Source of the DNA: Eutreptiella sp. 'Long Island Sound 2002'
Lineage: Eukaryota > Euglenozoa > Euglenophyceae > Eutreptiales > Eutreptiaceae
Assembly: GCA_964036045.1 (NCBI GenBank)
Contig: OZ038391.1
Span: forward strand, 44,279,621 to 44,343,620
Direction of reading: 5' to 3'
DNA: 64,000 bases
The position numbers were made by a program, and so were the translations under genes. The notes beneath the pieces are model-generated. The model ran no database searches and was not told the DNA's origin. It saw nothing but the letters and a program-made list of their open reading frames with translations. Below are positions 1 to 64,000 of the stretch, in pieces; the first letter of the stretch is position 1, and every line of letters begins with the position of its first letter.

Positions 1-422
1 GGCCTGGAGTCCGGGTGTAGCGGCATCTGGTGATAACCGTGTTTCAGGTCCAACACCGTGAAGATCCGCTTTTTCTGTTGCTTTTGGAGGATGGAGTCGA
101 TCAGGGGAAGCGAGTACGAGTCGTGCTCCGTTTGCTCGTTCAAACCCCTGTAATCCACCACCAACCTCCACTCGCCCTTCTCCTTCTTGGGCACGATGAA
201 GGCTGGGCTGGCCCACTCACTGTCGGAGGGTTCGATCCATCCCCGCTCAATGAACTCGGCCAACAGCTTCTTCATGGCCTCGGCCCGATCGCCCTGAAGT
301 TGGTACTCCCGATGACGATAGATCTTGGGGTTCGGCTTTAGCTTGATCCTCGCTGTGCCAAACCTCCCACGATCTGGAGGGTTCTTGTTGGCGACGCCAA
401 TGAATAGCCGCGTAGGCTTTGA
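1..422 (-). pseudogene. Element A pol: N-terminal reverse transcriptase, displaced into another frame
   Basis: This frame opens just after a TGA at 423-425 and runs off the left edge. It encodes typical Ty3/gypsy RT sequence: a lead-in KPTRLFIG, then ERGWIEPS, then WRLVVDYRGLNEQ, then FTVLDLKHGYHQMPLHPDSR, which holds the first catalytic Asp. The upstream protease/Dam-like frame runs on to a stop at 247 in a different frame, so one base has been gained or lost between about 250 and 422, most simply near 420. A programmed +1 shift cannot be excluded, but no recognised shift site is present. The rest of RT, RNase H and integrase lie outside the window. Confidence 0.85.
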
Positions 423-2208
423 TCAGCCTCTCCTTCAGCTCGGCGACCTTCGGGTTCTCCTGGGCCTCTTCAGCCGCTTGCTTCAGTATAGATACCACCG
501 ACCGCACTGCGGTATAGGCCTCTTCTGGATCCGATTCCGACTTCTCCTCGTCCGAGATGCCGTCTTCATCGTCGTGGGGTGCACTTCCCACCGATAATCT
601 TCGGAAATTTGCGGCCTCGGGCTGGTGACTGTCGCTATCGGCACCCATTCTTGGAAAGTCCCATGTTGGTGGGTCCGACCCAACCGGACCATCGTATTGG
701 TCCGCGATGTGATCCATGACCCTCGCCACGAACTCGTCCTTCTCGTACTTGCCGGTGACCAACATCTTGTCATCCCACCAATGCGGAGATGTGACCATGG
801 CTCGCCTCTTCTTGGCTGTCACACGGTCGTGCATCCCCATTCGCATGTAGTTGACGACGTCGTCGATCTCGGAGTGGGACAGGATGTCAATGCCATCCAC
901 TGGCTGATCCGTCCCCTCCTTGGGCTCAAACATGACCTTCATGGGCACCGCCTCCACCCTACGGATGAGTGCTTCATCACCTGTGGGCTGGGCTTGCGCC
1001 CCATCCACCAGGAAAGCCTTGGTACCCCACGCTTGACCCGGGGAGGGCATTGATACACCCTTGGCGTCGATGAACAACTCCTCCTCTGGCCCGAATGACA
1101 TCTCATTCAGGGTGATGGAGTCCAGCGTCGACTTGAGACCCTCCAGCGGACATGGGGTGGATCCTATGCCGGTTATGACCAGGATCCCCTTCGCCCTATC
1201 CGCGATGATCTTCTCCACCGTACGTCTGGTATTGTCCAGGGAGCCATGCCAATACATGGGTCCCCACTCCTTCAAACCCCAATGCCTGTGCCAGGCTGAG
1301 TCTCCTCGATGCCAATGCCTCCTACACTTCCGCAGAAGTGGGGCATCCCGGGAAGCGAAGACGTCCGTCTCGGGCCCTTCGGCTCCCAGCGTCTGGATCA
1401 TCCTGTCGTACACCTGCGGCGCCATTCCATACTCCGTGAGCTGAACTCCGCGGTCTCCTCTGGACTTGGCACCCACAGCTTGCACCGCTCCGACGATCCG
1501 ATCCTCTTCCTCAGCATTCCATTGGGATGATCCGCATGCATAGTCCGTGGACAGCCATGTGAGGCATTCATCATGCTCCCGGACCAGCGTTGCACGATGG
1601 GGAAGGGCTCCAATGGCGTTTGCCACCATGAAGTCATACCCGATGATCATATCCCAATCTGTAATGTCGGCCACATAGAAGTTCCCGGATAGAGTGCTTC
1701 TCTTCGCCTGATCAGGGCGGTTCGAGCGCTCATGCTCCCAGAATTCCATACTGATAGTGGCCTCATGGGTGCCCCCACCCATGATCTCTCCGTTGGCGAC
1801 CTTCAGGCGTACCGGTCTACGGCTGGGCTGCAGGAGTTCCTCCTTGAACACCCCTCTCCGGACCAGGCTCACCTGGGCGCCCGTATCCACCAACACATCC
1901 ACCACCTTCTCCTCTCGTCCGCACCGTACTCGCACTTTCAAGTGCGACTGCCGCTCGTCGCCATGAGGTGTATGGACGACTCTCACAGCATGCAACTCTA
2001 GCACGTCCGGGTGCATCAGGACTTCAAGGGTATGGTCACGGACGGTGTAGATCTTGGGTTGGTCCTGCCCGTCCACGGGGCTCTCCGTGGTCGCTCCTTC
2101 CTTCTTGCCATGTCCCGTACCCACATGTACCTCCCTTGGCAGGGCGCTCCAGGGGTTGGGAGTGGCGAAACTCAGTGGTTTTGGCTCCTCCGGAGCCTTC
2201 TCCGGCAC
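247..2208 (-). CDS. Element A pol: retropepsin plus Dam-like region
   Basis: The 653-residue frame (numbered from GTG at 2,206-2,208) is continuous upstream to the UAG at 2,290-2,292, so translation probably enters by readthrough and not by a new start. Residues 100-200 form an aspartic protease: VDTGAQVS at 107-114 and the WDMIIGYDF block at 185-193. Residues about 280-403 align with the Dam-like region of elements B and C: DVFASR at 282-287, MYW at 318-320, KII...K at 333-340, GILVITG at 341-347, AFLVDG at 398-403. The NPP(F/Y) methyltransferase motif is replaced by HGSL here, so catalysis is unlikely. Residues 420-610 are an acidic linker. The frame leaves RT near residue 596, where the RT frame takes over. 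Confidence 0.82.
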   Translation of the reverse strand: MPEKAPEEPKPLSFATPNPWSALPREVHVGTGHGKKEGATTESPVDGQDQPKIYTVRDHTLEVLMHPDVLELHAVRVVHTPHGDERQSHLKVRVRCGREEKVVDVLVDTGAQVSLVRRGVFKEELLQPSRRPVRLKVANGEIMGGGTHEATISMEFWEHERSNRPDQAKRSTLSGNFYVADITDWDMIIGYDFMVANAIGALPHRATLVREHDECLTWLSTDYACGSSQWNAEEEDRIVGAVQAVGAKSRGDRGVQLTEYGMAPQVYDRMIQTLGAEGPETDVFASRDAPLLRKCRRHWHRGDSAWHRHWGLKEWGPMYWHGSLDNTRRTVEKIIADRAKGILVITGIGSTPCPLEGLKSTLDSITLNEMSFGPEEELFIDAKGVSMPSPGQAWGTKAFLVDGAQAQPTGDEALIRRVEAVPMKVMFEPKEGTDQPVDGIDILSHSEIDDVVNYMRMGMHDRVTAKKRRAMVTSPHWWDDKMLVTGKYEKDEFVARVMDHIADQYDGPVGSDPPTWDFPRMGADSDSHQPEAANFRRLSVGSAPHDDEDGISDEEKSESDPEEAYTAVRSVVSILKQAAEEAQENPKVAELKERLIKAYAAIHWRRQQEPSRSWEVWHSEDQAKAEPQDLSSSGVPTSGRSGRGHEEAVGRVH

Positions 2209-2250
2209 CCGATGTGCCTTTGGTTTCTCAGGGATTCCACTGATTTTCGG

Positions 2251-2292
2251 AGGAGAGACCTCCGAGGTCCCACGCCCGTGGGGGCTCCTCTA
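2251..2292 (-). promoter_or_regulatory. gag-pol UAG junction with foldable RNA (element A)
   Basis: The stop codon is UAG at 2,290-2,292 in context GUC-UAG-AGG, and the pol frame continues without another stop. Directly after it, AGGAG (2,285-2,289) can pair with CUCCU (2,251-2,255). Inside lie two hairpins: CCCAC/GUGGG (2,278-2,282 with 2,269-2,273, loop GGGC) and ACCU/AGGU (2,265-2,268 with 2,258-2,261, loop CGG). This is a possible three-way junction. The pairings are read by eye; function as a readthrough stimulator is inferred from the parallel in elements B and C. Confidence 0.6.
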
Positions 2293-4433
2293 GACTTGAC
2301 TTCCCGCAGCCCCTTCCGGCTGCGATCCGCCAGGACTTTGTCCACCACGTTGCTGGGCTTTGAGTTCCTCCAACGACCTCAACATGTCCTCAGCAACTTC
2401 CTCGATCGACCTCACTCGTCGGTCCTGGCCAGGTCCACCACCATAGCCTCTTCCTCCGCCTTTTCCTTGGCCTTTGCCTTGGCCTTTTCCCCCGTCTCCA
2501 CCCTTCGCTTTCCAATCGGAAATCCGCTGCTCCTTGGGCTTCTTCTCGGGGTGGGCGGCGAAGTAGGCCTTCTTGTCCGCCTCGTACACCTTGCACTGAC
2601 GGTGGTCGTAGCATGGTTGTTTCCCTTGCCATAACATACCCAGCACCCGTCGTGCTGAGACCTGTACTCTCGGAACGAGAGCGGTGGGTTCCCGATCCTC
2701 CTTGGCTCTCTGCTCTTCTTGGGTCCCAGCTGGCTCCATCTGGACTGATCCTGCCCATGGTTCTTCACGTTATGCGCCACAAACGCGAAGAAATGGGCCT
2801 CCTCGTGATCCTCCCGGGACCCGGTCCAGTGGTCTTGGCCACTTCCACTTCCATCCTCCGCGGAGTTGGCCGTGTCCTCCTGGATCTCCCGATGATGGCG
2901 GTCTTCTCGGTGTCCTCGTTGTCCATGACCATGCCGATCTTGCACGTGGGCCTCGTTCTTCGCATTGAGCTTCAACTCCACCGTGATGTACTTCACGATC
3001 TCGTCCAGGCTCATGCGGGCGAAGATGACTTGCATCCTCAGCGGCTCCCCGCGCCTCCACTCCACGTTGTTGAGGCGCAGCAACCTTTGCTCCATGGAGT
3101 CCCCAAATACCTCCACGTACACGGCGTTCTTCAGGCCCAACATCCGGTTGGGTTCGCCCAGGTTCCTCCTGAAGAACTTCATGATACCCGCATGGGTATC
3201 CTCCGCCGCCATGATCCTCACCGCCACCCGCTTCTTGGCGCGCTTCTTCTCCTCGTCCTCCACTCTCCTCTTCCAGTTGCCGGGGAGGACGTCCTTCAGC
3301 AAGTGGCGGATCTCACTGGCCTCGTTCCAGTCTTCCACCAGCTTGAGGCATCTGCGGTACTTCCGCAGATACCGGTTCCACTCCCGGACCCGCAACTCAC
3401 CGCGGTCCAGCGGCAGTGGAATGGACCACAGGTCCTCCAGCTTCTGATTCGGAGCGTCCACCCGCTCCTCATCCTCCAACCACTGGAGGCAGGCCTGCTC
3501 CGTACGGATCAGTCCTTCCCGGATCTGATCCCGCAGCTCCTCCTTCAGGTCCTGCGCCAGCCGGTGTGGGAACGTCCGGCATACCCACTTGTCCCGCGGC
3601 GCTCCCCGCATCTCGCCGACGACCTCCTCGGCGAAGTCCTCCCAGTCCAGGATGAAGTCATCCAGGTTGGACGGGTTCCCGTCGTAATAGGGGATTTTGA
3701 TTCCCCTGAGGTCGTCAATCCTGATGGCGTCTCCGACGTCTCCAGCCACCACTCCACCGAGACGGATACCACCTGTGGCCGGGGGGTGTGAGTACACTCC
3801 CCGTACATCCCTCTCCTCCATGGAGTGCGGTCCAGTTGGGCCTGAACCCATGGGGTTTGGAATGCGGGAAGGACTTGCTCCATCGGCCGTCCATATCCCC
3901 GTATTGGGGTCCTTCGCCCACAGGTTTCCGCTTGGATGGCCTCGACCATGTCCGTCGGCGCTTCTAATGGTTCGCCCCTGCATGGTCTGGTTCTGGATCT
4001 CCATCTTCTCTTCCGCATAGACTACCATATTCGTCGTGATCGGTACATCCTGGGCGGCATGGGACATCTGTACCGTCAGGCTCCTCGGGTCCGTGGTTAC
4101 TCGCCCTTCCCGCATGGACCCAGCAGGTGCCGTGTGTTCCCCGAGCATTGTGGATTCGCTGAACATGGGAACAAACGGCAGCGCACCCGGGTCAACACGC
4201 GGAGGCGCGTAGGGTGCCTCTGCAGGGCCGCCCATGGGTTTATCCATGGCGCTCCTGAGGGTCTTAATCCACTCCACCAGCTCTGCCGCGGCCGGCTTTG
4301 CCGGGAGCTCCGGACCCGAGGCGAGGGGCTGTAGCTCCTCCAGCCTTTTCAGGCGTCCTGACATGTCCTCCACCAGGTGGAGGAGGCTGTCCACCACTCG
4401 CTGCTGCTTCTCCAGGGCCAGCTCCAGATTCAC
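2290..4433 (-). pseudogene. Element A gag: Gag domain and zinc-knuckle tail (frameshifted)
   Basis: The main frame (4,433 to 2,412) starts in a coiled coil that continues from the upstream frame. A Gag core follows around residues 245-400 (IPYYDGNPSNLDDF, then a helix-rich stretch with paired Trp/Arg), then a His/Arg-rich linker and CWVCYGKGNNH, the start of a Cys-His knuckle. Just after the knuckle (about 2,600-2,625) sense continues in a second frame, 2,739 to 2,290: DHRQC, then a Lys/Gly-rich basic tail and an acidic end stopping at the UAG of 2,290-2,292. That second frame is the one shared with pol. One indel thus splits the knuckle. The start at 4,433 is GTG and is not a real start; it sits immediately after a TGA of the upstream frame. 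Confidence 0.8.
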
Positions 4434-5404
4434 CGGTACCGGTCCCGTTCCGCTCGCAGCTCCTCCATGTCTTTCTCCGCGGCCGACTGGTCGTCCAGGA
4501 TCCCCGCGACGTCCTCCTCTAGACCGTCCTTGGCGTTGTCCAGGCGGTCAAGGCGATGCACGATGGCGTCCATCCCCATCTTCGGGTACTTGCCCATGAG
4601 GAAGGACACGTGCTCGCAGTGGCACGCAGCGTGCTTTCCGCCGGATTCAGCGCATCCCGCGGTTCCCGGCACCTCAGACTCATCACCCATAGGCGTATCG
4701 CCTATGGCGTCTGTCTCTGGTCCCGTGTGCCGGGGCACAGGTGCCGTCCGGGCCCTGGCTGGCCTCTCCAAGCCCTCGGCATCGTGCTTCAGGGCGGGCT
4801 CGGGGGCCGTGTGCGCCCTGGCGATCGGCGCGGACATCTCCGACTCCGAAGGTGGCTCGTAGGCTGTCCGATAGCCCTCGGAGTGCCCCTCGGATTCCCA
4901 CAGCCTGACCGGGCTGGGGTCCGTGTCCATAGCCCCGGCGTCCTTTGCCGCGGACTTGGGTGACCAGCGCTTCCGGTAGCGCCGGACCCGTCCTCCACTG
5001 CTGCCTGAATGGCAGGCCTCGTCAGAGTCCTCCGCAGCAGAGCGGAGGTTGCATGCCTTTCGGCAGCGACGCTCACACATGGAGACCAGGTCCTCCATGT
5101 CACGTCCTCCTCTTCCCGACTGTCGTACTTCTCTTCGGGCTTCAACTTCCGGAGTTCGCCATGCTCTTGAACGTCTCGGTTCGTCTATGGCTCCAATCTA
5201 CGGCGTGGTCTCCGCGGAGTCCACAAAACGCACCCGGGGCGTACTTGGGCAGGGCTCATAAGGGCCCAAGTCCCCGGGTCGGCGGTTGGTAGGGGCAGCA
5301 GGTAATCCTCTGCTACCATAAAGAAGGTCCCTACCAGGACCGGCCCCCGCTGTGCCCCTTCCGCCTGTTACCCCTGCTGATTTACTCCGGATCAACGATT
5401 GCAT
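4430..5404 (-). pseudogene. Element A gag: N-terminal part, in pieces
   Basis: Three pieces are visible. The first frame opens upstream of the PBS (listed start 5,404), reads through it as LYGSRG, and ends at a TAG near 5,198-5,200. A short middle piece (KLKPEEKYDSREEEDV) lies in another frame around 5,105-5,150. The third frame, 5,098 to 4,430, carries CERRC, then a His/Cys cluster CHCEH followed by a long coiled coil, and ends at a TGA directly before the next gag frame; loss of a single G at about 4,432 explains it. The Cys cluster plus coiled coil recurs in the Gags of elements B (CGCPRC) and C (CPADCSC). That gives this fragmentary region support as genuine former coding sequence. Confidence 0.65.
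5306..5318 (-). promoter_or_regulatory. Primer-binding site of element A (initiator tRNA-Met)
   Basis: On the minus strand TGGTAGCAGAGGA lies directly inside the presumed 5' LTR end. It is complementary to a tRNA 3' end CCUCUGCUACCA, which is the 3' end of the initiator tRNA-Met known from many eukaryotes. The same PBS core is at 42,368 and 59,088. It is read in frame by gag as GSRG. Confidence 0.85.
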
Positions 5405-39904: not shown

Positions 39905-40060
39905 TGCACCTCAGGAGCACATTGCTATTGAGAACGCATTCTCCAACATCAAGAAGTTTGGCCTTTTTCATCGAGTTAAGAGCCGAGGTGGATCGTACGA
40001 AATAATGAGTTGACCTACTTCTTCTTGGCGGCGTGTGTACTACATAATTCTGAGATTCAG
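39905..40060 (+). pseudogene. Possible relic of a Harbinger-type (DDE_4) transposase end
   Basis: One frame reads EHIAIENAFSNIKKFGLF, then after a one-base frame change ELTYFFLAACVLHN. This resembles the C-terminal part of DDE_4 transposases (VE..F..IK... then LHN). Short and interrupted, so tentative. Confidence 0.35.
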
Positions 40061-40325
40061 TTTGATTTGCAAAAGGGTTGCGACCCTACAGCTCAGCGGC
40101 CATGCAAATGTGCATAGTAGATCACCAAGAGTGTTAGGAATTAAGGATTGTCAAACAATGCAAATGATTGAACCATTGATCTACGATTTGCATCATTGCT
40201 TTGCACACCTTTGGGGAGGTTTGCTAAGGCGAGATCTGACAATTTGGCATGAACAAAGAACATTTTTAGTACTATCGAACTGCCTGTTTGGTGTGTCTGT
40301 GGCTTTCCATCGATAGGGTACCACA

Positions 40326-40925
40326 TTGGGCGACAGGGAGGCGACAGGGAGGCGACAGGAAGGCGTTAGGCAAGCGACAGGCAAGCGACAGGCAAGCGAC
40401 AGGAGAGCGACAGGTTACCACGTTGGGCGACAGGGAGGCGACAGGGAGGCGGCAGGAAGACGACAGGCAAGCGACAGGCAAGCGACAGACAAGCGACAGG
40501 AGAGCGACAGGTTACCACGTTGGGCGATAGGGAGGCGACAGGGAGGCGACTGGCAGGCGACAGGGAGGCGGCAGGAAGACGACAGGCAAGCGACAGGAGG
40601 GCGACAGGGAGGTAACAGGAAATAGCGACAGGAGAGCGACGGGAGGGAACGACAGGAGAGGGACAGGAGAGCGACAGGAAGGCGGCGGGCAAAAAGTAGC
40701 ATGGCGACAGGAAACGATAGGAAGCGACAGGAAGCGACAGGATAGAGACAGGAGGGCGGCTGGAAAGCGACAGGGAAGCGACAGGGGAGCGACAGGGGAA
40801 CGACAGGACAGCGACAGGGAAGCGACAGGCAAGCAACAGGGGAGCGACAGGGGGCTGAAAGTGCCAAAACAGCGACAGGGAGGCGACAGGGAGGCGACAG
40901 GATGGCGACAGGAGGGCGAGGTGAC
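40326..40925. repeat. GGCGACAGG minisatellite, array 2, with higher-order repeat
   Basis: About 600 bases of GGCGACAGGAG-type units. A unique tag TACCAC(A/G)TTGGGCGA recurs at about 40,318, 40,415 and 40,513, a higher-order period of about 97 bases. Its unit matches array 1, 660 bases upstream. Confidence 0.9.
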
Positions 40926-42023: not shown

Positions 42024-42367
42024 TGAAGCAGGTCACAACCCTACCCTGGCATTTTACCCCTAAGGGAGCATTATTTGGCCCTATATATGGGATATATGTG
42101 GGATAGGGTATATCATATTCCATTTCCTTGTTAGGAACATAGGATGTGGGATAGATAAGGCAATCTTGGATGTTTAGTAGTTATATCAATTAGTGGATGA
42201 TACGGTGGATTTCTCATATGTGCATATCAGGTATTTCATTGGCTATGTGTACCATATCTGTTTGCAGGATACTATTCAGTCAACACTATCGTTATGTCTT
42301 CGGTGCCAAGCAATGTTGCTGCCCATGCCACTGCGACCTCTGCTCCTGACCACCCGGTCTGGTTTCA
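42024..42367 (+). repeat. 5' LTR of element B
   Basis: 344 bp, TGAAGC...GTTTCA. A TATA-like CTATATATGG lies near 42,080-42,090. The gag ATG is inside it at 42,294, so transcription must start upstream of that point. Confidence 0.97.
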
Positions 42368-46447: not shown

Positions 46448-46492
46448 GAGTGCCCAGAGGCGCCCCCTTCGAAAGAAGAAAACCTCGGGCAC
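46445..46492 (+). promoter_or_regulatory. gag-pol UAG junction with stem-loop (element B)
   Basis: UGG-UAG-GAG at 46,442-46,450; the pol frame is open from 46,448. GUGCCC-A-GAGG (46,450-46,460) pairs with CCUC-GGGCAC (46,483-46,492): ten base pairs with one bulged A, starting two bases after the stop. Inside is CUUC-GAAA-GAAG (46,467-46,478), a four-pair hairpin with a GNRA-type tetraloop. Proposed readthrough signal. Confidence 0.65.
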
Positions 46493-49400
46493 CCCTGTGA
46501 CACTACCGTGGCTCTCGTTCCATCGAGAGTCATGAAGGGGCATATAGTGACTAGTGAGATTCAAACGAAACTTTCCGTTCAGGTTGTTTTGCCCAATGGA
46601 GAACGCAAGGCCCTCCCTGTTTTGGTGGATTTTGGGTGCCAAGCGGTCGCTTTGGCCAACCCCAATGTTTTTGGAGACCAACTCTCCGAAAAATATGAAT
46701 CCCCCCAACGGAGGCGCCTACTCCAAGCCGATAATGAGACGCCTTTGCCAGGGGGGGACGAGCAAATAGACGTCAAAATTCAATTTACGGGGGTTGTGGA
46801 TGGTAGTGTTTCACTTCCTCGTGTTGCCCAGTATGGCGTGTCCCCGTACCTTGTCCCGAATTTACCTTGGAATATGGTTTTGGGGCACCCATGGGGTTAT
46901 GAACATTGTGTGAGCCATTTTGCCCCTTTCAATTGTTTTTACTCTCACCATCCAGTGCACCCCCGTTTTTGGATTGAGGACTTCCGTGAGGCTCCACGAA
47001 CCGGCAAACCATTTTTGGTGAAACCCATTCATGGTAAGGTGTCCCGTCAGTCCGTGTGGGGCCTAACCGTTCCAGTCATTGGGGCGGTCACCCCTACGCA
47101 CCCTGCCCCGGCCATTGTGGTTACGCCCCCTGGTGGCGAACCGCCTAACCGTGTTGAGGCCGAGAAACACATATCCTATGCCTTGACCGCTTCCTCCGTG
47201 GCCCCCGTACAGGACCGGGCTTGTGCTTTGGAGCTCGTTGAATTTGCTCCCGAAGCCCTTGCCCGTGATGTTCTACCTACGGGGCGTGATGGGTCCACGT
47301 GGACCCAGTCTGACTATGGCCTCACGCCATATTGGGCCGCACGTGTCAAAAAAGAATATGGCAAAAACCCCGACGTGGATGCCTTCAATAGGGTCCCGGG
47401 TATGGCCCAGGCAACCCGTTGGGTTTCGCCGCTTGAAGATTTGTTTTCCACTCCCGCGGAGCCCTCCAAATTGTATTGGATTTGCCCTCCCTATCATCGG
47501 TTTTCCGATTGTGTTCGGAAAATTCGGCAAGAAAAACTACGAGCCATCGTCGTAGGGCCGAAGTGGACACATAGGGAGTGGTGGAAACCCCTTATGGAAA
47601 TTCCTTTGCAAGGGTACCACCTTCCTGGGCCAGAGACTAAAGCCTGTCTCTATCAGAATGACCACCTCACGCCCCTTCCTCAACCGGGTTGGTCCACGGT
47701 GGCGCTATACGTGGACGGTGGTATTGCGGAGGAAAATTTGGCGGCCACTAAATGTCATGTGGCCTCCGTTTTGGCACCGGCCGTCTCTAACCGCAACACG
47801 GATGGCGAGCCGGGCATGACCTCGGAGGAAGAGTCGGAGGATGAAAGGGTGCCTAACAATTTGGCTTCGGTGCGCACCCTCACGTATCAGGCGACCGGTA
47901 AAAAACTCCTCGCACCCGTTACTCTTGATCCTACCCCCGAAGATTTGGAGGCACAAGAATGCCTGCGTTCACGCATTGCGAAAATTGAACGAGAGTTATT
48001 GGGTGGGAGGGCCACTACCGTTAAGCGTTACCGAAAACGTAAAGGCGCCACACGATTGTTGGCGGCTTCTCGTGCGGGTGGCGTTGTCACCACCCAACAG
48101 CCTATTGTGTCTCCGGAGGTGGAGCTCATGAGGAGGCGCATCCTCGCGGACTATGTGCGGGATGCTTTTAGTGGGGAGGTTCGTCTCCGTCCGGGCCAGG
48201 AACACCCTAAGGTCCGTGGTACGGAGCGGTTGGGGTTTGCTAAACTTGACCTATACCCGAACGCCAAACCCAAGTCCGTGAAACCTATACGGTTGGTGGG
48301 GGAGCGTGCCGCGGCGGAGCAAGAAATAGTGGAGGACTTTTTGGCTCGTGGCTGGATTGAGCCGTGCCCTGCCTCCGAATGGGCGTCCAACGGTTTCGTT
48401 GTGCCCAAGAAAGAGAAAGGAAAATGGCGCCTCGTGGTGGACTACCGCCAACTTAATGAGGCTACCTTGCCCGACGCACACCCCCTCCCCCTCATAGAAA
48501 ACATGTTGGAAAATCAATCCAAACACAAGATTTTTACTATTGTGGACTTGAGTAAAGGGTTTCATCAAATTCCCCTTCACCCTGAATCCCGGGCTAAGAA
48601 CGCCATGAATTTGGCGGGTAAGCGATACCAATGGGGTGTTATGCCTATGGGTATCAAGAATGGGCCCGCTATTTTTCAACGGGTCATGGACCATGTTTTG
48701 CAGGGTTTGGATTGTGCGGACGTATATATTGATGATATTATTATTGGTTCCTCCGGTGCGACGGAGGAGGAGCTATTGGCTAACCACGACCGCGACGTGT
48801 GTGCCGTGTTGGATAGGCTACGAAAAGAGGAGTTGGTTGCTTCGGTTAGCAAAACCGATTTCTTTGTTCGTTCGGTTGAGTTTTGTGGCCATGTGTTGGA
48901 AAATGGCACACGTCGGCCGGCGCCAGGGAAAATGTTGGCGCTTGAGCGTTGGGACAAACCGGATAATGTTCGGGAGCTCCGGGGGTTCTTGGGGCTTGCC
49001 AACTATTATTCGGGCTATGTCCAAAACTACGCCTCCATAGCTACCCCTTTGATTAATATGTTGAAGGATTTGCCTAAGCATAAGAATGGCAAAAAGATAG
49101 GTCCAACATGGAATGCTTCGGCTAACGAGGCCTTTTTGAAGCTCAAGCGTGCTATTACGGATATTGTTCCCCTCCAACTAGCCGATTGGGATAAGGACTT
49201 TGTCCTCACCCCGGACGCTAGTAATTGGGCGGTGGGGGCGGCCCTACAGCAGGAAGGTTCCGATGGTGCCCTACGCCCCCTTGCCTTTTTCTCCCGCAAA
49301 TTGTCAGGCAGCCAATTGAATTGGAGCCCTCGGGAGAAAGAATGCTACGCCATAGTGGCGGCGCTTTTAAAATGGCATGGTTGGGTGGGGAACAAGCGCG

Positions 49401-50275
49401 TGGAGGTCCGTACGGACCACCGTAGCCTTGAAAATTGGGCTACGGAGGACCTCAAAACCGTTGGGGGTCCCTCTCCACGCCAAGCACGTTGGCATGAATT
49501 GTTCTCTAAATTCCACCTCCATGTGGTTTACACTCCGGGGCCAGTGAACCCCGTGGGTGATTTCTTGTCCCGTTGGGCTTACCCTGCTAACCCGGCGTTG
49601 GGCGATGTGTCCATACATGGGACGGCCCAAGCGGCCGGGGATGTGCGGGACATGATGGCGGCCGAGAAGGAGGAACTTTTCGCCCGCCCCCTTGTATTTA
49701 GGGCGGTTGTGGCGCCCGTTGTTACTAGGTCTAAAGCGGCGCCTTGGGCTCAAGGGGCACCCGCGTGTGATCCACCCCCTCTGGCTTCGCCTCCAGTGGG
49801 GGGGGGGACGAAGCAAAAGAGAAAGCTTCGGAGACTGGAGCAAATTGTCAAGATAAAAAAATCTTGGAAGTCCCACAAGAAGGCAACTCCTATACATGGG
49901 GAGGATGCTCCCAATGTTTTTGAGAAAAATTGGGCTAAACACTACCCAAATTGTCAACACTACAAAAAAATATGGCAAGATGCCTTGAATGGGAGCTTCC
50001 AAGATGGAGTGAGGTTGGTGGATAACAAGCTCGCCCGTAATGGACGGTGGTGTGTTCCTACGCTGCTAGTGCATCGTTTAGTGGCCGAATACCATGATGC
50101 ACTTCACTTAACTACTTCCAGTGTGGAACAACACCCGAAGGAAATTAACCATGGCGTGGAAGGTGAGGGGTTGTACAAAGCAGTGGAACTGCAATGTCAA
50201 ACGTGTCCCTCATGTCTGTGTGTCCCTCATGTGCCATTCACACGCATGACACCAAGCGCAAGCAAGGGTACATGA
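46448..50275 (+). CDS. Element B pol, part 1: protease, Dam-like region, RT, RNase H, integrase zinc finger
   Basis: Numbered from GTG 46,508. Protease: VDFG at 40-43, where the usual Thr/Ser of D(T/S)G is Phe, and WNMVLGHPW near 118-126. Dam-like region about 270-405: DAFNR near 290, LYWICPPY near 320-327, KIRQEKLRAIVVGPKW near 335-350, then WSTVALYVDGG. RT: WRLVVDYRQLNEA near 640, TIVDLSKGFHQIPLHP, YIDDIII near 741-747. RNase H: TPDAS near 901, REKECYAI, VRTDHRSLE near 968. The HHCC integrase finger (HDALH..H..CQTCPSC) is at about 1,195-1,235. The frame is broken just after by a duplication: GTGTCCCTCATGT occurs at 50,203-50,215 and 50,220-50,232, a 17-base step. RT and RNase H catalytic residues are intact. 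Translation probably starts by readthrough. Confidence 0.93.
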   Translation, partial: ECPEAPPSKEENLGHPCDTTVALVPSRVMKGHIVTSEIQTKLSVQVVLPNGERKALPVLVDFGCQAVALANPNVFGDQLSEKYESPQRRRLLQADNETPLPGGDEQIDVKIQFTGVVDGSVSLPRVAQYGVSPYLVPNLPWNMVLGHPWGYEHCVSHFAPFNCFYSHHPVHPRFWIEDFREAPRTGKPFLVKPIHGKVSRQSVWGLTVPVIGAVTPTHPAPAIVVTPPGGEPPNRVEAEKHISYALTASSVAPVQDRACALELVEFAPEALARDVLPTGRDGSTWTQSDYGLTPYWAARVKKEYGKNPDVDAFNRVPGMAQATRWVSPLEDLFSTPAEPSKLYWICPPYHRFSDCVRKIRQEKLRAIVVGPKWTHREWWKPLMEIPLQGYHLPGPETKACLYQNDHLTPLPQPGWSTVALYVDGGIAEENLAATKCHVASVLAPAVSNRNTDGEPGMTSEEESEDERVPNNLASVRTLTYQATGKKLLAPVTLDPTPEDLEAQECLRSRIAKIERELLGGRATTVKRYRKRKGATRLLAASRAGGVVTTQQPIVSPEVELMRRRILADYVRDAFSGEVRLRPGQEHPKVRGTERLGFAKLDLYPNAKPKSVKPIRLVGERAAAEQEIVEDFLARGWIEPCPASEWASNGFVVPKKEKGKWRLVVDYRQLNEATLPDAHPLPLIENMLENQSKHKIFTIVDLSKGFHQIPLHPESRAKNAMNLAGKRYQWGVMPMGIKNGPAIFQRVMDHVLQGLDCADVYIDDIIIGSSGATEEELLANHDRDVCAVLDRLRKEELVASVSKTDFFVRSVEFCGHVLENGTRRPAPGKMLALERWDKPDNVRELRGFLGLANYYSGYVQNYASIATPLINMLKDLPKHKNGKKIGPTWNASANEAFLKLKRAITDIVPLQLADWDKDFVLTPDASNWAVGAALQQEGSDGALRPLAFFSRKLSGSQLNWSPREKECYAIVAALLKWHGWVGNKRVEVRTDHRSLENWATEDLKTVGGPSPRQARWHELFSKFHLHVVYTPGPVNPVGDFLSRWAYPANPALGDVSIHGTAQAAGDVRDMMAAEKEELFARPLVFRAVVAPVVTRSKAAPWAQGAPACDPPPLASPPVGGGTKQKRKLRRLEQIVKIKKSWKSHKKATPIHGEDAPNVFEKNWAKHYPNCQHYKKIWQDALNGSFQDGVRLVDNKLARNGRWCVPTLLVHRLVAEYHDALHLTTSSVEQHPKEINHGVEGEGLYKAVELQCQTCPSCLCVPHVPFTRMTPSASKGT

Positions 50276-51441
50276 CCCCTATGCCTATACCTATGGAGCC
50301 CATAGACTCCATAGCGCTTGATGTGTTTCACTACCCTTCCACCTCCCACGATGGAGAGGTGTATGACCGAATGCTCCTATGTGTATGTCGGCTTTCCGGC
50401 TACCTCATCGCGATCCCTATTCCTAAACCCCGTCATGAAGACAAGGATGAAGGGCTAACGGGGAGAAGAGCGGCCCATTTGGTAATGGAGCGTTGGGTGG
50501 ATAGGTTCGGAGCCCCTCGTGAAATATGCTCCAACTGTGGGCCACAATTTGTGAGCCAATATTTCCAAACCCTTTGTTCTAAGATTGGTGCCCGCTCGAC
50601 TATGTGTCTCGCGGGTAGGCACCAAGGTAATGGCAAGGCCGAAAATACTGGCAAGCAGCTAAGGCGTGCCGTTGCTAAAGCCATTACCTTGAAGAAAAAG
50701 AAAACTAATTGGGTAGAGGTTTTGCCCGCCGTTGTACGAGCGTGGCATGAGACTACAGGTCCTTCAGGTTATACACCTAACGAGATTGTGTTTGGTAAAC
50801 ACAACCGTAATAAGGGGCCCCCTCTTGCTGAGCCTAAGGGGGTGGCCCAAGACGCCGCTCACTACTTCCAACGGCGTGAGGAGCTTATTGCTCTTGCACG
50901 GAGGGCTATGATTCAAGTGCAAGAGACAATGGCTCGTAAGTATAATAAGAGTAGGAGGATGTCCCCCAATTTCTCAAAAGGGGACCGCGTATGGGTCCGT
51001 CGCCAACGCAAAAATTTCGGCGATAAGACTTGTCCCTATTGGGATGGGCCCTATCAGGTTGTGGCCAAGAAGGCGCACGACCTCTATGTTATTCAAGTGG
51101 ACCAACGGAGGTTAGTTGACGTCCACGTTGATTGTTTAAAGAAAACGGTCAACTCCCCTCGCTCCCCCGTGCCTCTAAATTACACGGAGGAGGTTGCTAG
51201 AGTGCCCTCCCAGTTTGAGGAGGACACCTATAATGTCAAGAAAATATTAAGTCACCGTACTTACCGCCAGAGACTTCCCTTCAAGGTGCGGTGGGAGGGT
51301 TATACCAAAGATTGGGATACCGAGGAACCCGTTGAAACCTTCCTACCATCCTACAACAAAGTTTGGAGAGATTACTTGCAGAAACAGAATCTCACCCAAA
51401 CCGTTGACATCCTTGCCCACCTTGGTGGACCGCTCTCATGA
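50194..51441 (+). pseudogene. Element B pol, part 2: integrase core and chromodomain (Asp-to-Asn at the active site)
   Basis: This frame takes over from part 1 after the 17-base duplication. The integrase catalytic triad should be D,D-35-E: Asp43 (ALDVF) and Glu150 (KAENTGK) are present. The middle position is Asn114 in CSNCGPQF, exactly 35 residues before the Glu, where relatives have SDRGPQF. GAC-CGT to AAC-TGT would need two transitions. GPQF and the GNGKAEN block confirm alignment. Residues about 346-395 form a chromodomain (YNVKKIL, LPFKVRWEGY, WDTEEPVE, WRDYL), which in chromoviruses steers integration to marked chromatin. The part ends with TGA at 51,439-51,441. Confidence 0.9.
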
Positions 51442-54776: not shown

Positions 54777-55120
54777 TGAAGCAGGTCACAACCCTACCCT
54801 GGCATTTTACCCCTAAGGGAGCATTATTTGGCCCTATATATGGGATATATGTGGGATAGGGTATATCATATTCCATTTCCTTGTTAGGAACATAGGATGT
54901 GGGATAGATAAGGCAATCTTGGATGTTTAGTAGTTATATCAATTAGTGGATGATAGGGTGGATTTCTCATATGTGCATATCAGGTATTTCATTGGCTATG
55001 TGTACCATATCTGTTTGCAGGATACTATTCAGTCAACACTATCGTTATGTCTTCGGTGCCAAGCAATGTTGCTGCCCATGCCACTGCGACCTCTGCTCCT
55101 GACCACCCGGTCTGGTTTCA
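54777..55120 (+). repeat. 3' LTR of element B
   Basis: 344 bp, one mismatch to the 5' LTR. It also carries the gag ATG (55,047), whose frame here runs into flanking DNA because no PBS follows. Confidence 0.97.
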
Positions 55121-58599: not shown

Positions 58600-59087
58600 G
58601 CCCAGATTGGCTACATTTTGGTCATTTTCTTTGCTTCGGCGGAATCGCCGCCTCGCAGCTCAGTCACAGGATATTCCCTATATATTTCTGATATGCCGGA
58701 TTTGATTCCGCGGTCCATTCCCCGTAAATCCGCCGCGTTCCGCTATTTTAGCTGGAATCGCCATTTGCCGCTGACGCGCGCTCGCGGGCCAGATCGGCCA
58801 AACATTTTTACATAATTGGATTATTTAAATCTTTTCAGACAGTTTTGGACACTCAGATGTATTTAGAATAATCCGCATCAATTTTCTTCATAGACTGGGA
58901 TTTTCTGCCGGACCACAATCAGCATGGACCTTGCTTCAGTTGTTGCTGCTCTCGCCTCCGTTGGTGTTCGAGTATCCGGTTCTACCCCCAATAACAACGT
59001 TCAGGGAGACTCCTCGCGTGCCTGCCCCACTGGTCTTGCCGGCCCCGAGCCCTCCGGCACCCTCAACGACCCAGGGCAGCACTTTCA
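58600..59087 (+). repeat. 5' LTR of element C (inner part; outer border unknown)
   Basis: Ends TTTCA directly before the PBS. A TATA-like CCTATATATTTC lies near 58,677-58,690. The gag ATG (58,924) is inside it. The 3' LTR is outside the window. Confidence 0.65.
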
Positions 59088-61959
59088 TGGTAGCAGAGGC
59101 TACCTGAATGTTGTTCCTTTGGTGTTCCAACCACAGCTAGCTCCCCAGTACGGCCCCGTAGACCCCGTCACCTCCGGAGACGTAACGATTACGCTGCCGT
59201 GGTGCTGTGCGAACGAGGCCTTGAGAGGAATGCCTTGCGCAAGCCCAAATTGCCCAAGAAGGGCACAAATCAGCAGCTGTGGAGGCCCAGATTACAATCA
59301 AGATCCCAGTCGAAATTGGCCATCAAGCAGCTGGAATCTCCCAGCCTACGCCGATGGCAACCCTCCGGTGGAGCTTACGGACCTGGCAGGTACTAATACT
59401 CCCTACCAATGTCCACATTTTGAGACCATCGACGCCGACATTGACGACATTGAGATGGGTGGTCCAGGTGAGGTACCTACCTATAATCGACCAGCCTCTT
59501 GGGCACAATGGGACAACCATTTATCTTCAGAAGTGACCCGTAACCTTGAGGCGCTTGAGGCCCTTTGTCTATTAGCCACGTCTAAGCTGATAGGTCAAGA
59601 AAGAATCGCCTCTGATTTTTTATTTGAATACTTTTTCCTTCTTCAGGAAGAAATTAATACCAGGATGTGGTGGCGTTCTCAAGAAGATGAATCTTTTGCC
59701 ATTTTTTTGCAGATCTGGGAGGCAAGCCCCTTCCCGAAGGAGAAGACCAAGGCACCTGTTGCCGGGCCCTCCGCCCCTCATCCCTCTGTTTCCATCCGCG
59801 ACGATCTAGCCGCCGCGGTTGAGGAAGGAATTTTAGAGGCAGCCAGGCAGGCAAGCCTAGAAATTAGGGCTGAAGGAGCTCCCCAAGTGGACTCTTGGCT
59901 GCGAACCACTGAGATTAGCGGTCCGACAGCCTGCTCAGGCCCTTCAGGACACGGTATGTACTGTCCTGCCGACTGCTCTTGCAGATTACAGCGAGATACT
60001 GAGCTCCAATTGCTCAAAGATCAAATGCAACTCATCATTCAGACGCTGGGAATTAAAGATCTTTTCAAGACACACATGCGGTCTGAGGGCGCATCATCGG
60101 TGGAACAAACAACAGAACCGTCGGAGGAGGCGACAGAAATTTTTTCGATTGCTCCTTCGGTGGACTCTAAGACCACCGATGCCAGGATCAGCAGGACTAA
60201 GCTAAAGGAAAGGGTTACAATCTCTCGATCTCAGAGTAGGTCGGCGAGGGCTAGGACTGAGGCTCAGAATGCCAAGCGAACTGCCTCCCGTACTGCCCTT
60301 CCTGCTGTTGATTCCAATGCAATAGCCCAGATGTTGCTCGCCCAGACCCTCGCCGGAGCTGGTGTGGCTAATGATGCCGCCAAGGTGTCTGCCATTACGG
60401 CCGGTGTTGGGCTGGATTCACTTCTAAATCCTACTTCATTGCGACTTCGTCAGGTTGCCAAGCAACCGAAGTATAATGGAAACCCCAGACGTTGGCCTCA
60501 GTTCCAACGGGAATTTAAACTGTGGGTTAAGACTCAAAAACTCCAAGATGATCAGTTCCTGATGGCCCTCTTCGACTGCCTTGAGGGAGCGCCGGCCAAC
60601 ACTTGGCTCAGGACCTGGAGTGATCGTGAGGATTCAAGTTCCCCCCTTACCTTTGATGAGGTGTGGGAACAGTTGGAGGTACGTGGATCCCGGCTGCCAG
60701 AGGACCATTACCACCAGATGTTGAAGAATTTTCCTTCGTTCTCGCGATTAATCTTGCACGAAGTGCAAGACAAGAGACAGCGCTTCTGGAATCTAGTGGA
60801 AGAGTCTGAACATTCAGGCGAAAAATTTTCTAGTGCCGAGCTGAAAAATTCCATTTTTGACAAGATCCCCTCAGAAACCGCCGCCACCCTTCGGAATAAA
60901 CAATCCGAAGAAAAGGTTAAGACCTGGTGGGCGGAGGTCGATGGCTTCGATGCCTCGGCCAACAGGTTCACCGTCAGGGAAGCACTTCAAAAGTGTTCCC
61001 CCACGTCGTTTACCAAGGTGAAATTCACTGAAAACACGTGGAAAATCAAATTTAATGAACACGAGGATCGGGACTTGTTTGTCCAAGTCCTCAACAGGGG
61101 AGTAAGTTTCCATGGCCGTCGCCTGAAGGCCAAGAACTGGGTGTTTTCGTTCACCCCGCAGGAACTGTGGGAAGAGGTTGAGCGGCTTGCTGGCGCCGCT
61201 AATCAAAATTTCCATGAGGGTCTTGGGGGAAACAAGAATACCCAGCAAAACACCCAAAATGGGGCCCAAAAGGGCAACAAAAAGGTGAATGACACCCGGA
61301 ATGTTCAGGATCATTGTAGCATCTGCCTTCTTTTAGGTTCTACGAACCGAGCTAAGACGCATTCTACTGGTAATCACCGATGGTCTGCTTACGATCACAA
61401 GGTGATTGGTGAAAATGTCAGTAATTCGCAGAATTCAGACAGGAATGACAGACAGGTGCATGGTGCAAAGGGGGGAAAGGGTAATCCGACCCCCTCCGGT
61501 GGAAAAAAAAATACTGGAGGCCCTGGCGGGTCCCAAGGCAAAGGAAATCGGACTCCATCCGGCTCCGGTGGGCAGCCAAACGGCCAGACAAGTCCCAATG
61601 GCAACGCCGGAGGCGGAAATCGAAATCCAGGCCAAACCCCTCAATCCGGTACAAACAAAGGAAATGCTCCAGGATCACAGGGTAAGGGTAAGGGAAATCC
61701 TTCAGGAACCCCTTTCTCTGGTAAGGGCAGAGGGCGTGGCGACGGTGGTGGTCCATCATCCGGCGGCCGTGGCCGTGGACGTGGAAAGGGCAACCATCGT
61801 GTGGATCAGGTCTCAGGTGCAGATCAGGTGTCCGATGCGGATCGAGATTATGTCGAAAATGCCCTGAATCCAGCAGATGATCCGTTCCAAGATCAGTGGA
61901 TCGACGAATCAGGCTGTGTTCACAATGTTAATGCAGCCGCTGGAGGTCAGAACGCCTAG
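58924..61959 (+). CDS. Element C gag
   Basis: 1,011 codons, uninterrupted, ending at UAG 61,957-61,959. The ATG lies in the LTR; 54 codons are LTR-encoded, then HFHGSRG across the PBS. Around residues 340-380: MYCPADCSC followed by a coiled coil (LQRDTELQLLKDQMQLI), the counterpart of CHCEH in A and CGCPRC in B. The Gag core begins PKYNGNPRRWPQFQREF at about 515 and runs to about 690. CSICLLLG..H..H near 797-830 is a Cys-His knuckle of unusual spacing (C-2-C ... H-4-H). The tail is Gly/Asn/Gln/Pro-rich with RG clusters (GRGRGDGG, GRGRGRGKG), probably nucleic-acid binding. No other start fits better: this is the first ATG of the frame and the PBS-encoded peptide is conserved. Confidence 0.92.
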   Translation: MDLASVVAALASVGVRVSGSTPNNNVQGDSSRACPTGLAGPEPSGTLNDPGQHFHGSRGYLNVVPLVFQPQLAPQYGPVDPVTSGDVTITLPWCCANEALRGMPCASPNCPRRAQISSCGGPDYNQDPSRNWPSSSWNLPAYADGNPPVELTDLAGTNTPYQCPHFETIDADIDDIEMGGPGEVPTYNRPASWAQWDNHLSSEVTRNLEALEALCLLATSKLIGQERIASDFLFEYFFLLQEEINTRMWWRSQEDESFAIFLQIWEASPFPKEKTKAPVAGPSAPHPSVSIRDDLAAAVEEGILEAARQASLEIRAEGAPQVDSWLRTTEISGPTACSGPSGHGMYCPADCSCRLQRDTELQLLKDQMQLIIQTLGIKDLFKTHMRSEGASSVEQTTEPSEEATEIFSIAPSVDSKTTDARISRTKLKERVTISRSQSRSARARTEAQNAKRTASRTALPAVDSNAIAQMLLAQTLAGAGVANDAAKVSAITAGVGLDSLLNPTSLRLRQVAKQPKYNGNPRRWPQFQREFKLWVKTQKLQDDQFLMALFDCLEGAPANTWLRTWSDREDSSSPLTFDEVWEQLEVRGSRLPEDHYHQMLKNFPSFSRLILHEVQDKRQRFWNLVEESEHSGEKFSSAELKNSIFDKIPSETAATLRNKQSEEKVKTWWAEVDGFDASANRFTVREALQKCSPTSFTKVKFTENTWKIKFNEHEDRDLFVQVLNRGVSFHGRRLKAKNWVFSFTPQELWEEVERLAGAANQNFHEGLGGNKNTQQNTQNGAQKGNKKVNDTRNVQDHCSICLLLGSTNRAKTHSTGNHRWSAYDHKVIGENVSNSQNSDRNDRQVHGAKGGKGNPTPSGGKKNTGGPGGSQGKGNRTPSGSGGQPNGQTSPNGNAGGGNRNPGQTPQSGTNKGNAPGSQGKGKGNPSGTPFSGKGRGRGDGGGPSSGGRGRGRGKGNHRVDQVSGADQVSDADRDYVENALNPADDPFQDQWIDESGCVHNVNAAAGGQNA
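59088..59100 (+). promoter_or_regulatory. Primer-binding site of element C
   Basis: TGGTAGCAGAGGC, identical to element B and complementary to the initiator tRNA-Met 3' end. Read in frame by gag as part of FHGSRG. Confidence 0.9.
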
Positions 61960-61994
61960 GGGAGCCACGAAAATCGCCCCTCCCCAGGCGATTT
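61957..61994 (+). promoter_or_regulatory. gag-pol UAG junction with H-type pseudoknot (element C)
   Basis: GCC-UAG-GGG. Stem 1: GGGAG (61,960-61,964) with CUCCC (61,980-61,984), extendable by the G of UAG. Stem 2: AAAUCGCC (61,971-61,978) with GGCGAUUU (61,987-61,994), eight perfect pairs. The strands interleave as S1-S2-S1'-S2', an H-type pseudoknot with loops of 6, 1 and 2 bases. The last loop is tight, so part of stem 1 may open. The pol frame stays open from 61,960. Murine leukaemia virus uses UAG plus a downstream pseudoknot for the same purpose. Confidence 0.72.
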
Positions 61995-63351
61995 CAGGCA
62001 TGATCCCCAGATTCCAGATCGACCATTACTTGCTGTAGGGTCGCTTGTCTCCTCTCCCCTGGATCCGGCAGCGGATCCTTCTGTTGTAGTGGACGAGGTT
62101 GGTGTACAGTCCAAGCACAGGGCTCGTCAGTTTGTCACAAAGCTGTGGGTCTCTGATTGCAAGGGAAATTTCCACCTCGCCACTTGTTTGTGTGACAATG
62201 GATCAGAGGTAAATCTCCAATCCAATTCATTCTTACCCGACGACTGCGTGTTTGAGTCGCCTCATCCTGTTACCCTCGAGGGAGTTTCTGGACATTTTCT
62301 CGCAGGTGGGCAACGCGGTTGTTATATATCAACTCATTTGGTCGCTCAAGACCTTTGGGAAGAGCAAAATGTGGAAGAAGTTGTCCTTAAGGATGACTAC
62401 TTCTATTGTGCTGACATGAAGTATGACGTTTATTTGGGCCATCCTTGGCTTCGCAAGAACAGGGTAGCGCCCGTAGGTCATCGTCGTTGTTTTTTGCTGG
62501 AGTCAGGTCCCTTGGAGCGTCCTGAATTTCGTTTTTTGCACGCAGGGTTTAAAAGTGCAGAAGAATTTTTGAAGCAAAAGGTGACACCAAAATTTGGTGA
62601 AGATGTCACCATTGCAGAGGTGAATGGGAGTGCCGATTACTCCCAAGAGTTAGAATGTCTTCGTAGGGACTCCCAGCCACGACGCCCTTCGCGCTGGCAC
62701 TCTTCATCCTACAGAGTTGTCGACAAATGGCGCGATGCAATTTGTGAATACTTTCATGAACACCATTCCTTTTGGCCACAGTATGATGCCTTTGCTAACC
62801 GTGAGAACAAGCGCTTTGACAAGCACTTTAGCGACGCTTGGACCCATAAATGGGACAAGAAGTTGTGGATTAATCCTCCGTTTCACTTAATCCAGCAGGT
62901 CATCCACAAAATCAAGCAAGATAAAACCCAGGCAATTTTAGTTGTGCCCTTGTGGGACGACAAGCCTTGGTTTCAGGAATTACAAGACATTTGTGTAGAT
63001 TACATCGAACTTCCCAGGAAGATTAAGATGTATGCCAGGGACGACACAGGTCCCCTGCCACAGCGGTCCTGGAGTTCGCTTGCATTCCTGGTGGATGGAA
63101 AGCTTTCTGACTCTAATTCTGCTGATTCTGGTACTGATTCTTGTGTTGGGTCTGAATCTGAGGTTGAGCGTGGTACTGATGATGAATCTATTTTTTCTGA
63201 TTTTTGTCCGTCAGATACCCAAGGTGATTCAACGTCCAATGGATCCGCCTCGTCTCCCTCTTCCCCAATACGATCGACATCGAAAAGAATCTTCAGTGCA
63301 CGGGCGAAGAAAAATCTTAATTCGCGCCGCAAATTCCAGAGTTTTTTATGA
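61960..63351 (+). CDS. Element C pol, part 1: protease and Dam-like region
   Basis: Continuous with gag except for the UAG; a listed start at 62,089 is GTG and probably not used. Numbered from there: protease with CDNGSEVN near 32-40 and YDVYLGHPWL near 112-121. The Dam-like region spans about 202-338: YDAFANRENKRF near 231-242, then DKKLWINPPFHL with the NPPF motif near 260-263, KIKQDKTQAILVVPLWDDKPWF near 271-292, and SLAFLVDGK. This is the best preserved of the three. An acidic Ser/Asp linker follows. The frame ends at TGA 63,349-63,351 beside a run of six T; RT continues in the +1 frame, so one extra base in the run is the simplest explanation. Confidence 0.88.
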   Translation, partial: GSHENRPSPGDFRHDPQIPDRPLLAVGSLVSSPLDPAADPSVVVDEVGVQSKHRARQFVTKLWVSDCKGNFHLATCLCDNGSEVNLQSNSFLPDDCVFESPHPVTLEGVSGHFLAGGQRGCYISTHLVAQDLWEEQNVEEVVLKDDYFYCADMKYDVYLGHPWLRKNRVAPVGHRRCFLLESGPLERPEFRFLHAGFKSAEEFLKQKVTPKFGEDVTIAEVNGSADYSQELECLRRDSQPRRPSRWHSSSYRVVDKWRDAICEYFHEHHSFWPQYDAFANRENKRFDKHFSDAWTHKWDKKLWINPPFHLIQQVIHKIKQDKTQAILVVPLWDDKPWFQELQDICVDYIELPRKIKMYARDDTGPLPQRSWSSLAFLVDGKLSDSNSADSGTDSCVGSESEVERGTDDESIFSDFCPSDTQGDSTSNGSASSPSSPIRSTSKRIFSARAKKNLNSRRKFQSFL

Positions 63352-64000
63352 AAAACCCCCTGTGGAAGCTTTCATGGATCCTTTCGAGGAGCTGGATCAC
63401 GAAGAGAATCTCTGGGATTTCGACACACGACCCACCTATCTTCAAGAGGCAGTTGATACGGACCTGTTTAGGGACATCCGTAAGAAGATTCTTCCTGCCA
63501 AGGCCGAGGAAGTTGCCAAAGTTTTTTCGACAGTAATTGCTGGTGATCAGGTGGACACTGAGTTGTGTTCCAAGTCAAGAGAAAAGATTTTTGAGGAACG
63601 GAAGGACACAACCCTTTCAGGAAAGTTGATCAAAGACCCCCCTGTCCGTGGACAGTTTGGTGAAGCCTTCATCGAGCTTCGTGAAGGGTACAAGGCAAAA
63701 AAACAGCGCCCTTATGAAAATCATGGACACAAACATGAGATACTCAGAAAAATCATCGAGAGAAATCTCAGGGAATTTGGTTGGCTTGAGGGTTGTATGA
63801 CCAGCGAATGGTGCTGTGCACCCTTCACAGTCCCGAAGCCACCGCCTGCAGACCAGAACACTATTGATGGTTGGCAAATGGTGGTTGATTTTCGCAATCT
63901 GGGCGCAGAAACCAAGGCGGATTCGCACCCCCTGCCCCTCATTGAGGAGGAAATCGCCAAGAGGGCGAGAGGTCGTTTGTTTTCAGTGCTGGATCTCCGT
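63200..64000 (+). CDS. Element C pol, part 2: N-terminal reverse transcriptase (runs off window)
   Basis: Frame shifted by one relative to part 1 and open from before 63,200. It reads YEKPPVEAFMDPFEELD, then an acidic/basic linker, then TSEWCCAPFTVPK, WQMVVDFRNLGAETKADSHPLPLIEEE and FSVLDLR, the first blocks of Ty3/gypsy RT including the first catalytic Asp. The point of frame change lies between about 63,200 and 63,349. Confidence 0.85.
   Translation, partial: MFVRQIPKVIQRPMDPPRLPLPQYDRHRKESSVHGRRKILIRAANSRVFYEKPPVEAFMDPFEELDHEENLWDFDTRPTYLQEAVDTDLFRDIRKKILPAKAEEVAKVFSTVIAGDQVDTELCSKSREKIFEERKDTTLSGKLIKDPPVRGQFGEAFIELREGYKAKKQRPYENHGHKHEILRKIIERNLREFGWLEGCMTSEWCCAPFTVPKPPPADQNTIDGWQMVVDFRNLGAETKADSHPLPLIEEEIAKRARGRLFSVLDLR

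Follow-up and report, generated by a model that had tools for sequence, protein, structure and literature searches.

Three Ty3/gypsy-type retrotransposon families of Eutreptiella with a Dam-like methyltransferase domain between their protease and reverse transcriptase

A 64,000-nucleotide (nt) stretch of the Eutreptiella sp. 'Long Island Sound 2002' genome (contig OZ038391.1; hereafter the window) carries members of three families of Ty3/gypsy-type retrotransposons, here termed A, B and C. The Pol proteins of all three encode an additional domain between the protease and the reverse transcriptase (RT) that resembles the Dam-type N6-adenine methyltransferases of phages. The active site of the domain looks intact in C, and the A and B copies that were read lack the motif NPP[FY]. 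On balance we favor a single capture of a Dam domain that is probably still an enzyme in C, whereas in A and B it persists in Pol without catalytic function.

One domain in three element families

A first-pass annotation, made from the sequence of the window alone, had described three stretches with methyltransferase-like motifs. Translation places all three at the positions it gave, within the frames of A, B and C. The series reads DAFANRENKRF...W...KLWINPPF...KIKQDKTQAILVVPLWDDKPWF...AFLVDG in C (open reading frame 61960-63351, plus strand), DAFNR...LYWICPPY...KIRQEKLRAIVVGPKW...WW...ALYVDG in B (46448-50275, plus strand) and DVFASR...MYW...KIIADRAKGILVITG...AFLVDG in A (2289-247, minus strand). 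The region assigned to C holds, but its start at 62691 is out of frame. The domain is taken here as 62680-63105 (plus strand) in C, 47273-47722 (plus strand) in B and 997-1479 (minus strand) in A, and these bounds apply to all comparisons. The reading frames also bear out the claim that the domain lies at the same place, between protease and RT, in all three elements.

Across the three domains, 21 of 167 alignment columns are invariant. Each domain is recovered by a profile of the other two: C by A+B (E 1.3e-11, score 70.8), B by A+C (E 1.3e-12, score 77.0) and A by B+C (E 1.9e-6, score 42.2). The controls run for each profile, 44 segments from the same elements and 30 shuffles, score at most 17.9 and 17.0, respectively. 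Because the mutual matches lie far above these controls, they indicate one domain in three families, and we regard the A, B and C copies as very probably homologous. A three-domain profile searched against all six-frame stretches of at least 30 residues in the window (E <= 10) finds nothing beyond the A, B and C frames. In viral contigs the three-domain alignment gave 71 pattern matches, the C frame gave 3 and the B pol gave 5, and in genome contigs the three-domain alignment gave 108; none of these was confirmed.

In the window, RT is read in the same frame as the methyltransferase in B and in another frame in A and C. A frame change between the two domains as a general feature was rejected; many A and C copies read both in one frame. 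It may be a real feature of those A copies that share the window frames (25 of 65 scored).

Relationship to phage methyltransferases

The C domain matches Pfam Dam (PF05869) with an E-value of 7e-5 and 23.0 bits, below the curated gathering cut-off of 28.1. This is its only Pfam match at E <= 10, in keeping with the family named in the first-pass annotation. It also matches the PHROG family phrog_111 (DNA methyltransferase; E 3.3e-4). The only PHROG match of the B domain is to the same family and is weak (E 0.082), and the A domain matches neither Pfam Dam nor phrog_111. In an NCBIfam scan of the domains, C weakly matched two unrelated families and neither B nor A had a match, and a sequence search of solved structures with the 463-residue C frame returned two weak ankyrin matches. 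C5 DNA methylases have no Pfam match in the A, B or C frames scanned.

Among 50,697 phage records, 578 match the C domain at E <= 10, with a best listed E-value of 0.04. In a sample of 60 of these, the annotation is methyltransferase or methylase for 50, hypothetical for 6 and lacking for 4; near-identical phages are common in the sample, so the records are not independent. Seven of eight retrieved phage genes were aligned (the unannotated L008 was excluded), and the A+B+C profile matches the resulting seven-phage profile with a probability of 95.8 and an E-value of 6.7e-9. As single sequences, C, B and A match it with E-values of 3.4e-8, 3.3e-4 and 0.079, and the best of the 44 control segments reaches 0.041. 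When the phage profile is run over the window with HMMER, C ranks first (E 6.7e-9) and B second (E 0.48), and A is unlisted. The seven phage proteins have 28 invariant columns, of which 13 are conserved in C and 8 each in B and A. The C domain retains the N-P-P core, together with an aromatic residue two positions upstream.

A structure model for which the three window sequences were the sole input resembles phage N6-adenine methyltransferases, the best named match having an E-value of 1.8e-5. At E <= 1e-3 the viral fold matches with a name are six phage methyltransferases, and five of the six are called DNA or phage N6-adenine methyltransferases. The predicted C fold is of the class I S-adenosylmethionine (SAM)-dependent methyltransferase type, as the first-pass annotation had expected, and N6-adenine enzymes stand foremost among its named viral matches. 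In a comparison with the PDB, PCIF1/CAPAM fills four of the top five rows by Z, and some viral PCIF1-like proteins rank lower in the viral fold search. NPPF is also the motif of PCIF1/CAPAM, a cap-specific adenosine methyltransferase. Modeling of the A domain on its own failed, and a fold search with that model gave no match at E <= 1e-3.

The proposed Dam-type identity is upheld for C by Pfam, PHROG and fold, is weak for B and finds no direct match in A. The link to phage Dam is therefore strong in C, weak in B and indirect in A, which is tied to Dam only through B and C. We conclude that C almost certainly carries a Dam-derived domain.

Motif retention and selection

Copies were searched in the host genome (2.28 Gb, 2,205 contigs, including the window at C14:44279621-44343620). 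For family C, 92 of 29,213 candidates were scored, and for family A, 65 of 36,451; frame lengths were counted from the listings. The query for family A favors copies with the frames of the window copy. Selection was assessed in 28 of the 92 C copies, comprising the 8 best, window copy included, and 20 from further down the list, and in the 25 stop-free copies out of 30 A copies read.

WINPPF occurs in 28/28 C copies read, and NPP[FY] is absent from 30/30 A copies read. The claim that the domain was retained while its NPPF motif eroded thus stands across A copies, and for B in the window copy only, where CPPY takes its place. A stop interrupts the domain in 2 of the 28 C copies.

The ratio of non-synonymous to synonymous polymorphism (pN/pS) in C is 0.043 before the methyltransferase, 0.044 within it and 0.136 in the linker after it. 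Variant codons, synonymous to non-synonymous with stops counted, number 35:5 in the domain, 58:13 before it and 11:8 after it. By Fisher test the domain is distinct from the linker (p 0.018) but not from the protease part (p 0.59), and it departs from the neutral expectation with p below 1e-14 under three transition weights. In A, pN/pS is 0.183 before the domain, 0.262 within it and 0.348 after it. In both families, copy pairs are not independent in these ratios because the copies share ancestry, and pN is lowered because high-ranking protein matches were compared. Given this ancestry and the best-match sampling, the contrast between domain and linker within one protein is the safer reading. 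The methyltransferase domain is under purifying selection in both A and C.

Origin and possible roles of the domain

The RTs of A and B are 52.7% identical over 131 residues, and that of C is 35-38% identical to either. Together with the shared insertion place, this kinship makes one gain before the families split the simplest account. We propose that a Dam-type N6-adenine methyltransferase domain of phage or bacterial origin may have entered the Pol of the ancestor of A, B and C, between protease and RT, and that NPP[FY] would then most simply have been lost on the A-B side.

In C, the domain is predicted to be a catalytic adenine methyltransferase, which we consider somewhat better than an even chance. 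It would be made within Gag-Pol and packaged with RT, where it could meet both RNA and complementary DNA (cDNA). There it may methylate adenines in the element's own nucleic acid. Newly made cDNA would be the most likely target, and we propose it as the substrate only tentatively. The marked copy would enter the nucleus and integrate, and the mark could act in self-recognition, protection or chromatin. In A and B, with the catalytic motif gone, the domain may have been kept because it supports the structure of Pol or binds nucleic acid, much as a degenerate RNase H came to serve retroviruses as a tether. The whole scenario is one capture with two fates: a large, recently active C family would place N6-methyladenine on its cDNA or its RNA within the particle, and the enzyme of the sister families would be dead but selected. 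As a whole it is conceivable and falls somewhat short of an even chance. One limit on a common Dam origin is set by A, for which Pfam, PHROG and phage-profile searches all lack direct similarity to Dam.

The most serious alternative is that all three families carry a pseudo-enzyme, a spacer or nucleic-acid-binding tether of Dam descent between protease and RT, in which the NPPF of C serves base-stacking or folding instead of catalysis. Family A (30 copies) and the window copy of B do without the motif, yet the A domain is under purifying selection, and B lacks the motif although it was inserted recently, as its identical long terminal repeats (LTRs) indicate. The published description of degenerate RNase H as a tether in retroviruses (PMC5348765) is a precedent. 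However, C keeps NPPF in every copy read, along with the D-A-F-A-N region and the W residues, under selection as strong as that on the protease part, and we consider this alternative unlikely.

The C domain could instead be an RNA adenosine methyltransferase that modifies the element's own transcript, internally or next to the cap, and not its cDNA. The high rank of PCIF1/CAPAM among solved structures, with viral PCIF1-like proteins further down, would fit such a substrate. Sequence profiles favor Dam, no PCIF1 family appears in Pfam at E <= 10 and most of the named viral fold matches are DNA or phage N6-adenine enzymes, although likeness of fold is silent on substrate. We think this distinctly improbable, and less probable than a pseudo-enzyme.

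Two or more separate gains, with DIRS-type elements and phages as possible sources and the likeness arising by convergence, would suit the distance of A and B from the phage profile but sit badly with the identical position in all three elements, the mutual profile matches (E 1.9e-6 to 1.3e-12) and the flanking RTs, which are related in the same way, and are very improbable. Least credible of all is a chance resemblance to Dam in an otherwise unrelated Ty3 linker: the Pfam score is below threshold and the individual phage E-values are weak, but Pfam, PHROG, profile-profile comparison and fold agree, and the fold model was built without any phage sequence.

With an active enzyme in C, adenine methylation in the host genome is predicted to be concentrated on copies of family C, with no such enrichment on those of A or B. 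One apparently catalytic family beside non-catalytic ones offers a natural comparison for the function of the domain.

Architecture of the elements and other repeats

By their sequence, A, B and C are Ty3/gypsy-type, chromodomain-bearing LTR retrotransposon families (Table 1). The order protease - RT - RNase H - integrase is found in one intact copy each of A and C and in the window copy of B, whose integrase changes frame. A protease match in Pfam, below cut-off, is seen in A alone, and the proteases of B and C are assigned from their position and a D-x-G motif. In all three the integrase core is matched below cut-off, and a Pfam Chromo domain lies C-terminal to the integrase in each. The Phage_integrase (tyrosine recombinase) family has no match in the A, B and C frames scanned.

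Table 1. Positions of retrotransposon features in the window.
Feature	Position	Strand	Evidence or remark
C methyltransferase domain with NPPF	62680..63105	+	Pfam Dam, phrog_111, fold matches to phage N6-adenine methyltransferases
C protease and methyltransferase frame, window copy, 463 residues	61960..63351	+	Open reading frame
C gag frame, stop to stop	58894..61959	+	Ends in TAG in frame with pol
C frame with start of RT	62999..64000	+	Leaves window at its end
C primer-binding-site-like TGGTAGCAGAGGC	59088..59100	+	In another copy, same site directly 3' of 537-nt LTR
B methyltransferase domain, CPPY replacing NPP[FY]	47273..47722	+	phrog_111 E 0.082; A+C profile E 1.3e-12
B pol: protease (by position), methyltransferase, RT, RNase H, integrase start	46448..50275	+	Pfam RVT_1, RT_RNaseH, translation
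B integrase core and chromodomain, another frame	50167..51441	+	rve E 1.5e-4 (below cut-off), Chromo E 9.9e-6
B 5' LTR (TG...CA), then primer-binding-site-like TGGTAGCAGAGG	42024..42367	+	Identical to 3' LTR
B 3' LTR	54777..55120	+	AGGG on both outer sides, a 4-bp target duplication
A methyltransferase-derived domain without NPP[FY]	997..1479	-	B+C profile E 1.9e-6
A protease and methyltransferase frame	247..2289	-	Pfam gag-asp_proteas E 4.4e-5, below cut-off
A start of RT	3..386	-	Leaves window; 52.7% identical to B over 131 residues
A gag frame	2412..4547	-	Position upstream of protease; no match in Pfam scan

Scored C copies are 97-100% alike (n = 92). A single 1,727-residue frame with the same start runs through methyltransferase and RT in 48 of them, and 7 have the 463-residue frame of the window copy. 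One unbroken copy reads protease - methyltransferase - RT - RNase H - integrase - chromodomain, and this copy has 537-nt LTRs that are 99.1% identical (5 differences) beside the primer site. The best PDB sequence match of the C pol is Ty3-G Gag-Pol (E 3e-60), and the RTs of A and B are alike to that of C. The protease active site of C, placed by position at 62194-62205, reads D-N-G-S and not the usual D-[ST]-G.

The B element in the window reads protease - methyltransferase - RT - RNase H - integrase - chromodomain. Its LTRs are 344 nt each with zero differences, and we infer from their identity that it inserted recently. B is the sole element that was examined for a target duplication, and one was seen. 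Despite the identical LTRs, the integrase shifts frame relative to the rest of pol at 50167-50275, which may reflect a mutation or an assembly error. The B protease active site, placed by position at 46628-46639, reads D-F-G-C, again not the usual D-[ST]-G.

In both C and B, a single TAG is the sole break between the pre-pol frame and pol, with the frames in register (61957-61959, followed by GGG, in C; 46445-46447, followed by GAG, in B). This suggests that Gag-Pol is made by stop-codon read-through. TAG GGG AGC stands at the same place in all eight C copies read, window copy included, and three of the eight have a further stop within 500 codons upstream.

Scored A copies are 90-100% alike (n = 65). 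A single 1,688-residue frame is present in 19, and another 25 follow the frame of the window copy over its full length, so the frame change after the methyltransferase is common to part of the family. The copies thus form two sets, one with the shared change and one with a long frame, which may reflect an old mutation or a programmed shift. One unbroken A copy reads protease - methyltransferase - RT - RNase H - integrase - chromodomain, and its coding part lies between direct repeats that are 99.2% alike over 2,024 nt or more. A primer-site-like match for A lies at position 5318 of the window (minus strand), and the A protease motif is D-T-G.

Other repeats occur in the window. A 391-nt inverted segment (12950-13340, minus strand) is 77% alike to part of the B LTR and the sequence after it, contains a primer-site-like sequence with two mismatches and is probably what is left of an older B-like element. 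Repeats of an 11-nt GCGACAGG type form arrays at 39511-40855, and 8970-10403 holds four head-to-tail copies, spaced 378 nt apart, of a repeat that has open frames on either strand. Scans of the whole window with Rfam and for tRNAs found nothing.

Comparison with known systems

The phage N6-adenine methyltransferases of PF05869 and phrog_111 share with the domain a collinear series (D-x-A-A, N, W, W-x-NPP[YF], P, W) and the predicted fold. In A, B and C, however, the domain is fused into Pol, and the motif is absent from the A copies and the window copy of B.

As published descriptions have it, DIRS1-like elements also carry a Dam-type (PF05869) domain inside Pol, in the order RT - RNase H - methyltransferase (PMC3783388, PMC3266345). 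They encode a tyrosine recombinase and are described as being without an aspartic protease or DDE integrase (PMC3783388). By these descriptions A, B and C are set apart by a methyltransferase ahead of RT, a protease and a DDE integrase. One of the accounts calls the function of the DIRS methyltransferase domain unknown (PMC3266345).

KnitGypsy-Dnmt3 of Klebsormidium nitens is reported to have a DNA methyltransferase in a Gypsy Pol under purifying selection. That enzyme differs in being a cytosine C5 methyltransferase, which its authors describe as structurally unrelated to Dam, in an element with a DIRS-like repeat layout. In the same report, De Mendoza et al. proposed that the cytosine enzymes of DIRS elements methylate cDNA (PMC5890265). 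Algal DNA transposons with a ParB-like and N4C/N6A methyltransferase protein are described as another possible case of an adenine methyltransferase on an algal mobile element, but there it is an accessory gene on the opposite strand of a DNA transposon, outside any retrotransposon Pol (PMC12477816).

Chromoviruses and the Chronos and Ectocarpus lineages have an integrase followed by a chromodomain, like A, B and C. The excerpted accounts of chromodomain Ty3/gypsy elements do not mention a methyltransferase between protease and RT (PMC5348765, PMC12477816). Among the open-literature matches listed, with repeat databases outside the scope, we recognized no report of an LTR element with a Dam domain placed between its protease and RT. 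Dam domains were known before from the Pol of DIRS elements, and what appears to be new here, judged by sequence, is a Dam domain in LTR elements with a protease and a DDE integrase.
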